In this document: positions 2,365 to 5,742 of the stretch, in pieces
How the letters are laid out: each line of letters begins with the position of its first letter
Numbering within the stretch: position 1 is the stretch's first letter
Assembly (NCBI RefSeq): GCF_025152575.1
Contig: NZ_CP102293.1
Coordinates: 62,001-126,000 of the forward strand
Length of the DNA: 64,000 nucleotides
Direction: 5' to 3'
Source: Subdoligranulum variabile
GTDB taxonomy: Bacteria > Bacillota > Clostridia > Oscillospirales > Ruminococcaceae
Program-made: the position numbers and the translations under genes
The notes under the pieces: model-generated
The model's input: the letters and a program-made list of their open reading frames with translations, nothing else
What the model was told of the DNA's origin: nothing
Database searches by the model: none

Positions 2365-2487
2365 GAACTTTTTTGAGATTTTTTGAAGTTTTTTCGAGGA
2401 GCGAAGCTCCCGAAAAGCTCTCAAAGGCTGTTGTTATGCGGTTTTTCAGCGGCCATCCGCGTCGCTTCCGCGCCGGACAGCCTGACT

Positions 2488-2516
2488 ATAATACCACCCC
2501 GAACTCACTTTGTCAA
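2488..2516 (-). promoter_or_regulatory. rRNA promoter P1 (distal)
   Basis: Minus strand: -35 TTGACA (2511-2516), 17-bp spacer, -10 TATTAT (2488-2493). It forms a tandem pair with P2 about 150 bp downstream, the usual arrangement for rRNA operons. The rest of 2143-2681 holds the leader, AT-rich DNA upstream of the promoters, and no gene. Confidence 0.88.
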
Positions 2517-2681
2517 CACCTTTTTTCAGATTTTTTTCTCTCCGCACTTTTGTTTCCCTCTTTAACTCGAAAGCGGCTTTTCCTCTTAAAGAAACAATAA
2601 GCCTATAAAATCATTCCACTCTATTTTCTGTTGTTTAACTTCCGGTTAATTTTTGTGCCTCCCGATTGAAGTACGGCTCAA

Positions 2682-2709
2682 TTGTTCCTCGGAAAAAGAA
2701 ACGGTATAA
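2682..2709 (+). promoter_or_regulatory. promoter-like sequence inside the 5' end of the recombinase ORF
   Basis: Plus strand: TTGTTC (2682-2687), 17-bp spacer, TATAAT (2704-2709), followed by AAGGAGG near 2721-2727. If it is used, RNA would start near 2716, so the TTG at 2682 could not be the start codon. No ATG, GTG or TTG lies at good distance after the AAGGAGG in the ORF frame. Promoter activity is inference. Confidence 0.5.
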
Positions 2710-5159
2710 TGGGAGTATCGCAAGGAGGGATAAACGATAACCGTTTAAACGAACACGGTTATGGCTTGAATAACGCACTGGCCTGCTTGTCCGGCGGTAG
2801 CGGAGACTGGTGTATCTACACCCGTTGCCAGCCCGGTCCCTATTACAAGGTCAGCGGTCCCTTCGACCTCAACATGACGGTAAAAATGACAAATACAATC
2901 GACCTTCCTGATACGCTGAATCTCCAGTGGCCCGAGCCTTCGACGGTCATTTATGTGCGAGTGCCGATGTCTATGGCCCGCACTTTGCAACGTCAGGGAA
3001 ACCGTAAACTAAGCGATTTATCTACACTGCGTCAGTGGCTTATTGAACATCTGGGGGTTGCCTACCGTGGCTATCTAGAGCTGGACCCCATCTCACTTGA
3101 ACCCAGCGCTAAAATTGCAGTAACCATCGGGCAAAACAGCCTGCTGGTACCGCCCATCCCGGTTCCTATAATGATGGCACGAACCGAACGGCTGGAAGTC
3201 GAACTGGGTGGTCAGATAGTTCCGGTCACCTATGTTCACGGTACGCTTGACAAATCCAAGCGTGAGCACCTTGTACATGGCAGTAAAACTCGATTTTACT
3301 ATCAATGCAGCCAGCCTACCCAAGGCATTGATATTCGGCTTGGCAAGCGTGTAATCGCCACTGCCCAGTTGGGAGAGATTTGGCACCGTGAAGATGGAAG
3401 TCCCCTCTGTCGGCACAACAGCTACAACGAATTCGTAGGTGAGCTGATTTTACCCGAACTGCCGCGGGGAGTTCTTGCCACCCTTAACAACAAAACGGGA
3501 ATCGACCGAAACGATCCCGATTGGGAAACTGTTTTCGATGCGCTATCAGAGTTTCCTCCCCAGAAAAACGCCATAAAATACAGCGAGGATGAACTGAAAA
3601 AGAAATGGATGAAACTCCTCAAAGCCGCGAATCCTGAAGATGAAGTAACCAGTGAAATTTCTGTTTGGCCAACCGGCACTCGTATTGATGTAGTCGACAA
3701 AGGGACAAATGACAAGTACGACATCTACGAACTTAAGGCGCATAAGGCCGAACCTCAGGATTTATATCAGCTTAAGATGTACTGGGACGGCCTTGTCCTT
3801 GAGGGAATCCAACCCACACGAGGTTTTTTACTCGTATCGGAGTACAGTGATGCCATTCAAAAGATGGCAAATGCCATGAATAGGGGTCAGTACAAGATCC
3901 TTATGGATGAGATAAAAGGCTATACTGCGGAAGACCTTACCAAAGAAGTGTATACAGAACTTCAATATAAGATTTGTCGCCACGCCTTGGAAGCAACTCG
4001 TGGCACCACTCAATGGTCTCCCGGAATGGAAGCTCCAGAGTCAGCAAAGAAGCGTCTAAATCTGCTTTACGAATTGATTCTGGATTTACAAAAAGTAAGT
4101 GGCTACGAAATTCCTGTTATCCCGAGCCGATATAACGGAAAGCCTTCGCACGATGAATTATTGCTAGCCAGAACAGACAGTGCTCGGAGTCTTCCATTCA
4201 ATGTTCTCCAGCAGCTCTGCAGTACTTCTGAAATACATGGTCAGATAGCATTGCTCATTGATACTGGTTTGCGCATCAGTGAATGCACAGGCCTCTTATA
4301 CAGCTCTCTCCACTGCATCCAAGGCTCTCAGGGCCAACTCTACTATATCAGTGTCACTGGTCAGTTCGATACTAAAAATGGCAAAAGAACTGAGTTTCCG
4401 AAAACCAATCCATCCTATAGAACCATCCCGGTATCCGTTGATTTAGGACGTCAGCTTATCTGCGCCATTGGCACGAATACAAAGGATAACAATTATTTCT
4501 TATCTCTGATGTGTAATCAATTGGGTGGTGAAGTCTCGGAGTCAAACAGCGCCCCAGCCGCCTTCCAAGACTATACCAGTAAGTTGATTTCAGGGGTTCT
4601 TCGCAAAAAAGAGAATTTTACGTTAATATCAAATGAACGCGCCTACACATTCGCCTCTAAAAAACAAGACCAATCTTTGCAGTCTATGGCGACCTGTCAC
4701 GCTCTGCGAAGGAACTTCTGTACATGGCTGCACTGTCGAGGCATTTCCACGCAAGAGCTCTACCAGCAGATGGGTCATGCCATGAAAACCATAGATAGTC
4801 GTTCTATGAACCGAGGTAAAACGCCTTCTGAACTATATGTCATGTGCTTACAGAAGTACGTACGCTCTACGGTATTTAGTCCTGCCCGCCATTTACGGTA
4901 TAATGCCGGCGGCAAATATACCTATACTGAAGTTCCTGCCTGCGGCATTGAACTTTCATTACCTCCGAATGGAACCTACGAAATCACTATCCAGGATACC
5001 GAACCTCAAAATCAAATTCTGGTGATAACCAACAGTTTGAAGGTGGAAGTGCGCTACAAGGAATCGTTACCCGCCAGATCCGATTCTTCAGAATTTCTGG
5101 CTAGAAACAATTTATTGGCAATTCAAAGCAAACGGTATCCGTTTCGGTCCGGCAAATAA
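2682..5159 (+). CDS. GHKL-ATPase fragment + PD-(D/E)XK nuclease + tyrosine-recombinase-like fusion
   Basis: An 825-codon frame with three recognisable parts. Residues about 20-300 resemble the back half of a GHKL (gyrase/Hsp90/MutL-type) ATPase: NEHGYGLNNAL looks like the second glycine box, followed by a transducer-like beta-rich region. Residues about 325-400 fit a PD-(D/E)XK nuclease: D336, E350-L-K352, then Q363-xxx-Y367. Residues about 500-735 fit a tyrosine recombinase: TGLRISE (R531), KNGKRTEFPKT (candidate Lys 565 or 568), H673-xx-R676, MGH (H699). A beta-rich tail of about 90 residues follows. The ATPase N-box and first glycine box are missing, because an in-frame TGA at 2667 closes the frame. 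The recombinase nucleophile Tyr is absent at its normal distance from H699; the nearest is Y719. Start codon is uncertain (TTG 2682, TTG 2766, or ATG 2874). It may be a 5'-truncated gene. Base use is more AT-rich than its neighbours. Confidence 0.6.
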   Translation: MFLGKRNGIMGVSQGGINDNRLNEHGYGLNNALACLSGGSGDWCIYTRCQPGPYYKVSGPFDLNMTVKMTNTIDLPDTLNLQWPEPSTVIYVRVPMSMARTLQRQGNRKLSDLSTLRQWLIEHLGVAYRGYLELDPISLEPSAKIAVTIGQNSLLVPPIPVPIMMARTERLEVELGGQIVPVTYVHGTLDKSKREHLVHGSKTRFYYQCSQPTQGIDIRLGKRVIATAQLGEIWHREDGSPLCRHNSYNEFVGELILPELPRGVLATLNNKTGIDRNDPDWETVFDALSEFPPQKNAIKYSEDELKKKWMKLLKAANPEDEVTSEISVWPTGTRIDVVDKGTNDKYDIYELKAHKAEPQDLYQLKMYWDGLVLEGIQPTRGFLLVSEYSDAIQKMANAMNRGQYKILMDEIKGYTAEDLTKEVYTELQYKICRHALEATRGTTQWSPGMEAPESAKKRLNLLYELILDLQKVSGYEIPVIPSRYNGKPSHDELLLARTDSARSLPFNVLQQLCSTSEIHGQIALLIDTGLRISECTGLLYSSLHCIQGSQGQLYYISVTGQFDTKNGKRTEFPKTNPSYRTIPVSVDLGRQLICAIGTNTKDNNYFLSLMCNQLGGEVSESNSAPAAFQDYTSKLISGVLRKKENFTLISNERAYTFASKKQDQSLQSMATCHALRRNFCTWLHCRGISTQELYQQMGHAMKTIDSRSMNRGKTPSELYVMCLQKYVRSTVFSPARHLRYNAGGKYTYTEVPACGIELSLPPNGTYEITIQDTEPQNQILVITNSLKVEVRYKESLPARSDSSEFLARNNLLAIQSKRYPFRSGK
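2737..2762. promoter_or_regulatory. perfect 8-bp inverted repeat, possible operator
   Basis: ATAACCGT (2737-2744) and ACGGTTAT (2755-2762) are perfect inverted copies separated by 10 bp. They lie about 20-45 bp after the predicted transcription start of the recombinase ORF. That position suits a repressor site or an mRNA hairpin near the ribosome site, but no regulator gene is visible nearby. Confidence 0.35.
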
Positions 5160-5178
5160 CATAGATTTTTACCGATTT

Positions 5179-5435
5179 TATTCAATACGAGTTCCCTATG
5201 GACTAATCGCCCCTCAAATCTCCAAGATGGTGCGAAACGGAAAATGCCGGGTCAAAAAAGCAAAAACTTCTACGCATAAAATCATTGTGCATCGTGTACA
5301 ATTCCGTCTTTCAAAATTTTCTGTTTTGTCAAAGCCAGATTAAGTAAAAAAGCGCGAAAATTATGTATCTTTGATGCAAAAACAGCCCCTTCAAAATCGG
5401 GGTATTTTGCGCTATTCAATACGTATTCAATACGA
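5179..5435. repeat. three copies of TATTCAATACG after the recombinase ORF
   Basis: TATTCAATACG occurs at 5179-5189, 5413-5423 and 5424-5434; the last two are in direct tandem, and the first and third extend with GAG or GA. They lie between the recombinase stop and tRNA-Pro. Repeated short sites next to a recombinase gene and a tRNA can be recombination or accessory binding sites, but that is inference. The rest of 5160-5494 has no convincing gene; a 38-codon basic frame at 5227 has no good ribosome site. Confidence 0.6.
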
Positions 5436-5494
5436 GAGCCGAAAAAGCGCTCCATGCCGAAAATATAGAAGTCCGTTTTATGATACAAGCAAAG

Positions 5495-5534
5495 AAAAAG
5501 GACCTTGGAACCTACGTTCCACGGTCCTTTTTTA
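5495..5534 (-). terminator. terminator after tRNA-Pro (may also stop the plus strand)
   Basis: Hairpin with arms GGACCTTGGAAC and GTTCCACGGTCC around a CTAC loop, flanked by A-rich and T-rich tracts on both sides. It lies just past the 3' end of the minus-strand tRNA-Pro. Confidence 0.85.
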
Positions 5535-5556
5535 GCTGACCCTGACGGCCCTTGTT

Positions 5557-5633
5557 TGGTCCGAGTGGCGAGAGTCGAACTCACGGCCTCTTGAACCCCA
5601 TTCAAGCGCGCTACCAAACTGCGCTACACCCGG
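5557..5633 (-). tRNA. tRNA-Pro (GGG)
   Basis: Minus-strand cloverleaf: acceptor CCGGGTG/CACTCGG, D-arm GCGCAGTTTGGTAGCGC, anticodon arm CTTGA-ATGGGGT-TCAAG with anticodon GGG, T-arm GTGAGTTCGACTCTCGC, and encoded CCA at 5557-5559. It reads codon CCC. It has its own consensus promoter and terminator. The recombinase ORF ends about 400 bp from its 3' end. Confidence 0.95.
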
Positions 5634-5665
5634 TCGGAACTGGGCTGTCTCGAATCAGCTTGTTT

Positions 5666-5694
5666 ATTATAAGCCCATTTGCAAAAAATGTCAA
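5666..5694 (-). promoter_or_regulatory. tRNA-Pro promoter
   Basis: Minus strand: TTGACA (5689-5694), 17-bp spacer, TATAAT (5666-5671), about 33 bp before the tRNA. Both boxes are consensus. It lies between atpC and the tRNA. Confidence 0.92.
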
Positions 5695-5742
5695 CACATT
5701 TTTTGATTTTTTTCAAAACTTTTTTTGAGCTTACAATTCACG

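Follow-up and report, generated by a model that had tools for sequence, protein, structure and literature searches.

MORC-type ATPases are known from DNA compaction, silencing and restriction systems. The paraMORC3 proteins, in the outline given by Iyer, Abhiman and Aravind (2008; PMC2292703), comprise a GHKL ATPase, an S5-like middle domain and a C-terminal restriction-fold nuclease with an E-D-ExK motif, are patchy in distribution and mobile, and are described as RM-linked or standalone. VcSduA, a Shedu protein of the GHKL type that is reported to restrict phages, has an N-terminal GHKL ATPase and a C-terminal PD-(D/E)XK nuclease, the outline of that work placing the nuclease in DUF4263 (PMC12137116). 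Genomic islands integrated at tRNA genes, of the type covered by Islander, are outlined as having a tyrosine integrase beside the tRNA gene and a displaced 3' fragment of the tRNA at the far end (PMC4383910).

The open frame considered here (Table 1) lies in a 64,000-nucleotide stretch of the Subdoligranulum variabile genome (contig NZ_CP102293.1, positions 62,001 to 126,000), referred to below as the window. The host genome (G000) is a single 3.24-Mb contig, 99.9% complete, in which the ORF sequence occurs once. The first-pass annotation had presented it as a continuous frame of 825 codons joining sequence of the GHKL, PD-(D/E)XK and tyrosine-recombinase types, in AT-richer DNA with an rRNA operon on one side and tRNA-Pro on the other. 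The frame is indeed present, all three types of sequence were recognized in it, the named motif sets (GHKL, nuclease and recombinase) sit at the residues given for them, and the setting is correct, with 16S rRNA at 613–2141 and tRNA-Pro at the far side. The further idea of one stable protein with three domains was not borne out. We consider it very likely that a deletion has left the ORF as a scar within what remains of an island once integrated at the tRNA-Pro 3' end.

Table 1. Features of the window in and around the chimeric open frame.
Feature	Position	Strand	Remarks
Probable end of an rRNA-operon leader	2480..2537		85–95% matches at three other places in G000 and in many relatives
Promoter and ribosome-site region	2624..2735	+	80–82% to two copies in G021:C37, upstream of an XRE-like gene
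Chimeric open frame, 825 codons	2682..5159	+	TTG start, TAA stop
ATPase-nuclease fragment	2733..3881	+	ORF 18–400, corresponding to P0003 residues about 99–481
Surviving GHKL G2 motif NEHGYGLNNAL	2748..2780	+	ORF 23–33
Nuclease-like region, NucS/Cas4-like	3585..3875 (limits approximate)	+	D336, ExK 350–352, Q363, Y367
Probable deletion junction, in frame	3881..3882		AMN / RGQYK
TnpB-like tyrosine recombinase, C-terminal 425 residues	3882..5156	+	ORF 401–825; R531, H673, R676, H699
Probable right end of the former island	5160..5529		Like the DNA from TnpB to tRNA-Pro in G021
tRNA-Pro(GGG), probable integration target	5557..5633	-	3' end toward the relic

Two truncated genes make up the ORF. Its ATPase-nuclease half is 97% identical to P0003 (519 aa) over ORF 17–400, matched to P0003 residues 98–481, and lacks the first ~97 residues, with the N-box and G1, as well as the C-terminal 38 residues; its recombinase half is 92% identical to P0001 (560 aa) from residue 136 to the end and lacks the first 135 residues. 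Identities of this size mean a likeness far beyond chance. At the junction (...AIQKMANAMN/RGQYKIL...) the intact proteins diverge on each side. The best 120 of the 231 homologues listed are 471–565 aa long and each covers just one half of the ORF (44–52% of its length; six of these 120 carry the integrase domain); none has the fused order, which is also absent from the 198 other genomes searched. With the ORF's own genome counted, 15 of 199 genomes had a match, and that genome alone had both halves in one frame. The search for the same order elsewhere, proposed in the first-pass annotation as the check on the fusion, thus gave only separate proteins among the matches listed, and the fusion fails by that measure. 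At the near-invariant positions, those conserved to 95% or more, the ORF shows no change (0/86 in the ATPase part and 0/62 in the TnpB part), the corresponding figure in 14 relatives used as a control being 0–2; the fusion is either recent or still constrained.

The intact parent family has the N-box, G1 and G2 motifs and the Bergerat fold of GHKL ATPases. E41, D44, D77 and G81 of P0003, which represent the N-box and G1 and are each found in 44/44 relatives, are deleted from the ORF, so that the window copy lacks the N-box (E/D) and G1 (DxGxG) of a GHKL ATPase. The nuclease residues D336, E350, K352, Q363 and Y367 of the ORF correspond to D417, E431, K433, Q444 and Y448 of P0003, each present in 44/44 aligned family members (an alignment of 44 sequences from the best 120 of the 231 homologues listed). 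Assignment to the PD-(D/E)XK type follows from the D..ExK kept in the ORF together with a nuclease-fold profile match: the nuclease part matches the NucS structure (E 8.5e-4), and 19 of the 44 members match NucS_C in Pfam. The Cas4-like (ORF 315–423) and NucS-like (334–397) Pfam matches of the ORF are both below the cut-off, as is the nuclease match of P0003 alone. PADLOC returned nothing for the ORF and, for intact P0003, only Cas4 (E 0.0042). On the recombinase side, Phage_integrase matches ORF residues 521–701 above the Pfam cut-off. R531, H673-xx-R676 and H699 correspond to R266, H408, R411 and H434 of P0001, each present in 35/35 aligned sequences, and there is no tyrosine at the canonical spacing, about 9–10 residues, past H699 in this half. 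The predicted structure of the whole ORF has a pLDDT of 44.5 and was set aside.

In architecture the intact parent is like paraMORC3, with GHKL, S5 (inferred from the MORC alignment) and restriction-fold nuclease regions in one chain, whereas in the window copy the ATP site is gone. VcSduA differs in its DUF4263 nuclease: no member of the parent family (0/44) matches DUF4263 in Pfam at E<=0.1, and a DUF4263-type structure is absent among the best 50 structure matches listed, which by itself excludes nothing. The eukaryotic MORC2 and MORC3 ATPases show 15% identity over P0003 residues 19–382 only, the nuclease part lying outside the match. The parent protein would work as an ATP-gated, MORC-like DNA clamp controlling its nuclease, most likely in an island-borne defence.

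Upstream of the ORF, the segment ending at 2537 is probably the end of an rRNA-operon leader, judging from its place upstream of 16S. The promoter region that follows has a TATAAT box at 2705–2710 and AAGGAGGG at 2722–2729 (the promoter box names and 'XRE' were assigned by eye, without a family or promoter search). In both G021 copies the ribosome site is followed by an ATG start; the window reads ATA there, in another frame, and the ATPase fragment thus stands behind a foreign promoter and ribosome site without a matching start codon. As for the TTG at 2682 and the ATG at 2709, these precede the -10-like box or fall inside it and would be outside any transcript made from it, which leaves translation of the fusion doubtful. 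Two XRE-like gene copies (by eye) with this promoter region are found at L109:30-536 and 1757-1945, one of them apparently truncated.

The order of the intact genes in relatives is, on one strand, xis, Int371, ATPase-nuclease, DUF6809, TnpA and TnpB, followed by tRNA-Ala(GGC) or tRNA-Pro(GGG), TnpA and TnpB being our labels for two large recombinase-like genes. This full order is present in Fournierella massiliensis (L039), in Gemmiger (L040 and L041) and in L029, L144 and L145; L044 lacks xis and Int371 but is otherwise the same. In L030 and L031/L042 the first four genes are present, and TnpA-TnpB lie farther away on the opposite strand or outside the DNA examined. The run from ATPase through DUF6809 and TnpA to TnpB is co-oriented in L029, L039, L040, L041/L143, L044, L144 and L145. 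A DUF6809 gene (for example, L039:9301-9597) lies 3' of the ATPase-nuclease in eight Int371-type loci as well as in L044 and L045, the assignment being by Pfam for L039 and by similarity for the remaining loci. The G021 island (L029/L108, G021:C83 22.8-45.4 kb), which lies between tRNA-Pro repeats, also carries genes for an HKD+Snf2 helicase, a PDC-S20 protein that we take to be KAP-like, a TIR-like protein and a type III restriction enzyme; the L035 island has a type I-like restriction subunit. The suggestion of a mobile or defence origin was upheld. The island type is rare and occurs in relatives from the Gemmiger/Fournierella group. In Gemmiger sp. An87 there are four partial ATPase copies (L043, L046, L047 and L048), each of them broken off by the end of its contig, a pattern that a repeated element would produce. 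The ATPase of L031/L042 holds one or more stop codons, and the ATPase-nuclease at L036:9917-11155 lacks about 90 internal residues with no loss of frame, which makes it a further case of in-frame deletion in this family.

A tRNA-Pro or tRNA-Ala gene is found no more than 1.5 kb from TnpB in 11 of the 13 distinct loci including the window (L029, L030, L034, L037, L038, L039, L040, L041/L143, L044, L048, L144, L145 and the window itself; TnpB-like matches in G052, G006, G017 and G042:C12 fall outside this count), the exceptions being L030 and L034, which have no tRNA nearby in the DNA examined. G021 contains a 77-bp copy of window 5527–5603, in the same orientation and 22.5 kb from tRNA-Pro, and G042 has two tRNA-Pro repeat copies 47 kb apart; in both genomes ATPase, TnpA and TnpB are all located between the repeats. 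Direct repeats of the tRNA-Pro 3' half thus flank the island in G021 and G042, and the window has one copy only. Across 11 genomes the repeat is found in two copies in six and in one copy in five (G000, G026, G034, G004 and G1424, the last having the element and a single repeat); in G1293, G1302, G1453 and G059 the two copies are on different contigs, so that flanking repeats were seen in two genomes only. No left-hand copy was detected in the G000 genome at up to three mismatches, and there were no direct repeats of at least 13 bases in the stretches compared at the guessed island ends of L039–L042, L044 and L045. These islands share the layout outlined for Islander-type elements (PMC4383910) but differ in that the fullest of them have three recombinase-like genes, including one pair with unusual catalytic residues.

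To the right of the ORF, window 5311–5634 is 77% identical to L029 (G021). Four relatives that lack the element at this site (L082, L083, L084 and L086) match the window only from 5506–5529 rightwards, near the tRNA 3' end, and a fifth (L085) matches it over 5486–5724. In G034 and G026 the match to the window (85% identity) begins as early as 5402, so that the island end is less sharply placed. These two relatives also have 39 bp of the tRNA-Pro 3' end as a partial copy about 2.7 kb from tRNA-Pro (L080:6981-9704 and L081:7470-10193); the ATPase is absent there and the two genes in between seem unrelated. The tRNA-Pro site of G034 and G026 may have been taken by a different element, which perhaps left another relic.

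The reading of the ORF as a scar is based on the truncations, the junctions, the gene order in relatives and the tRNA repeats of relatives, all of which are observed. The parent would have been an island with xis, integrase, ATPase-nuclease, DUF6809, TnpA and TnpB beside the tRNA. A single deletion of ~2.6 kb, with its ends at ATPase codon ~481 and TnpB codon ~136, would have put both genes in one frame, a random join having a 1 in 3 chance of staying in frame; on the coordinates of L039, removal of the stretch between about 9.2 kb and 11.8 kb as a single event would yield the order seen in the window. A second rearrangement may have removed the left end through ATPase codon ~98 and placed there a foreign promoter and ribosome site without a start codon. 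We infer the number and order of these deletions. If made at all, the fused product would probably be inactive, since it has no ATP site and only part of the DNA-binding domain of the recombinase. The lack of a matching start codon makes a recent origin of the fusion likelier than continued constraint.

That the ORF might instead encode a working three-domain protein, and thus a new mobile or defence gene, is suggested by a frame that stays open for 825 codons with the nuclease residues and the R/K/H/R/H set intact and with no damaged conserved position. A functional enzyme would hardly be expected to have lost the N-box, G1 and the recombinase N-terminus, to follow a ribosome site with no start codon and to have no counterpart of the same order among the best 120 of the 231 homologues listed or in 198 other genomes, and we regard such a protein as highly improbable. 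An assembly error at the join might be suspected from the position of the ORF between tRNA-Pro and an rRNA operon, which is a repeat, yet the genome is one nearly complete contig and offers no second copy of either half to mis-join; no TnpA copy was found in it (an empty search without a positive control), and neither junction was seen in repeated DNA of the host. Such an error appears a shade more improbable still. The deletion scar therefore remains the best explanation of the ORF. A phage or a plasmid origin of the ORF was also considered and rejected, the matches amounting to a single distant phage record (26% identity), a weakly matching viral contig (41% over 32 residues) and four distant plasmid records (under 60% identity).

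In contrast to paraMORC3, where the main text of the original paper uses neither 'integrase' nor 'recombinase' (PMC2292703), the ATPase-nuclease gene here mostly adjoins an integrase gene. Of the 16 distinct loci in which both neighbours of the ATPase gene are seen, 14 show a co-oriented tyrosine integrase gene immediately next to it: xis-Int371 is upstream in eight (L029, L030, L031/L042, L039, L040, L041/L143, L144 and L145), Int415 is upstream in one (L032) and Int341, of 341 aa, is directly downstream in five (L033, 8676-11235; L035, 407-2981; L036, L146 and L151). These 16 loci represent three arrangements, several of them come from close relatives, and they are hence not 16 independent events. 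There is no adjacent integrase in L044 and L045. Seven further loci at contig ends were left out: L147 and L149, where the 5' side is seen, have no integrase upstream, and L043/L150, L046, L047, L048 and L148, where the 3' side is seen, have DUF6809 downstream and no integrase directly behind the ATPase. Together with L044 and L045, these loci indicate a sub-lineage in which no integrase adjoins the ATPase. The survey leaves aside the ATPase matches in G017 (38 residues) and G439 (29%). Three Lactobacillaceae plasmids with distant relatives (26–32% identity) have no tyrosine integrase directly adjacent; the neighbours on one of them include a serine-type recombinase. The co-oriented integrase in 14/16 loci, drawn from two distant groups (Int371 versus Int415/Int341, ~25% identity) and found on either side of the ATPase, could mean that the parent protein is an accessory of integration or excision, serving the integrase as a DNA clamp or a processing enzyme, and not a defence gene. 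Against this stand an architecture equal to that of paraMORC3 and of phage-restricting VcSduA, the other defence genes in the islands, the loci that lack an adjacent (L044 and L045) or upstream (L147 and L149) integrase and the Lactobacillaceae plasmid relatives. We give the accessory role appreciable but less than even weight.

Multi-recombinase elements, such as Tn554 and the RIT elements, contain two or more adjacent recombinase genes. The TnpA/TnpB pair is like them in this respect and differs in that it seems to divide the catalytic residues. The two genes are adjacent and slightly overlapping (L039:9805-13075, L044:10329-13570 and L029:6354-9667). In TnpB, the Arg-I, Lys, H-xx-R and His residues of tyrosine recombinases (R266, K309, H408, R411 and H434) are present in 35/35 sequences, and a catalytic Tyr at +8 to +10 past H434 in 0/35 (two have one at +7, one at +11 and two at +12); the only invariant Tyr is at P0001 position 475, and C457 is invariant as well. 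In TnpA, Arg at the Arg-I position is found in 0/36 sequences and, by eye, there is no H-xx-R at the expected place, but the canonical Tyr, Y458, 11 past the Gly of an FG found in place of GH, is present in 36/36, as is a second Tyr at +19. The two sets were aligned separately, without one-to-one pairing: for TnpB, 30 of the 35 matches plus five loci, with five fragments dropped; for TnpA, 31 of the 48 matches plus five loci, from a search that scored only 8000 candidates. By eye, the diverged overlapping pair p467/p493 (L033, L035, L036 and L151, near-identical copies; for example, L036:5903-8766) shows the same division: p467 has no Arg-I, keeps a partly degenerate H/R motif and has a Trp-to-Tyr spacing of 10, whereas p493 has Arg-I, xxR and GH and no Tyr at such a spacing. 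In a search of only eight sequences, p493 matched the TnpB profile at E 1.7e-16 and p467 the TnpA profile at E 1.5e-5.

Direct profile comparison of TnpA with TnpB is weak (probability 2.9%, P-value 0.015), with the Arg-I region aligned; TnpA also matches a profile of four island integrases (E 6.6e-6) and the XerA-type NCBIfam (E 7.3e-4). No recombinase was matched by TnpA among solved structures, and its best PDB match, HisF at E 0.008, was taken as chance. From the conserved motifs, then, the catalytic residues seem divided between TnpB (Arg/His/Arg/His) and TnpA (Tyr), although Y475 could serve TnpB in cis, contrary to a divided active site. A bolder scheme, in which the parent islands would have a two-subunit tyrosine recombinase, TnpB contributing Arg-I/Lys/His/Arg-II/His and TnpA, without Arg-I, the tyrosine in trans, with the MORC-like ATPase-nuclease as a core of the same integration machinery and the window ORF as a relic of such elements, strikes us as rather unlikely.

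The ATPase-nuclease family is rare, being found in 4/394 genomes sampled from the order, 1/391 from the class, 1/398 from the phylum and 11/396 from the family; the own genome is counted each time and the samples overlap. ATPases of about 50% identity also occur in other phyla, for example P0113, labelled Acidobacteriota. We recognized no description of the operon, the island or the recombinase pair among the matches listed from the open-access literature. The chimeric ORF is most likely an accident, and its annotation as a new three-domain enzyme is unwarranted. The lasting interest is in the intact island family, with a MORC-like ATPase-nuclease that usually adjoins integrase genes and with paired recombinases that appear to share catalytic residues. 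Either the link between ATPase and integrase or the shared recombinase active site, if confirmed, would surprise specialists.
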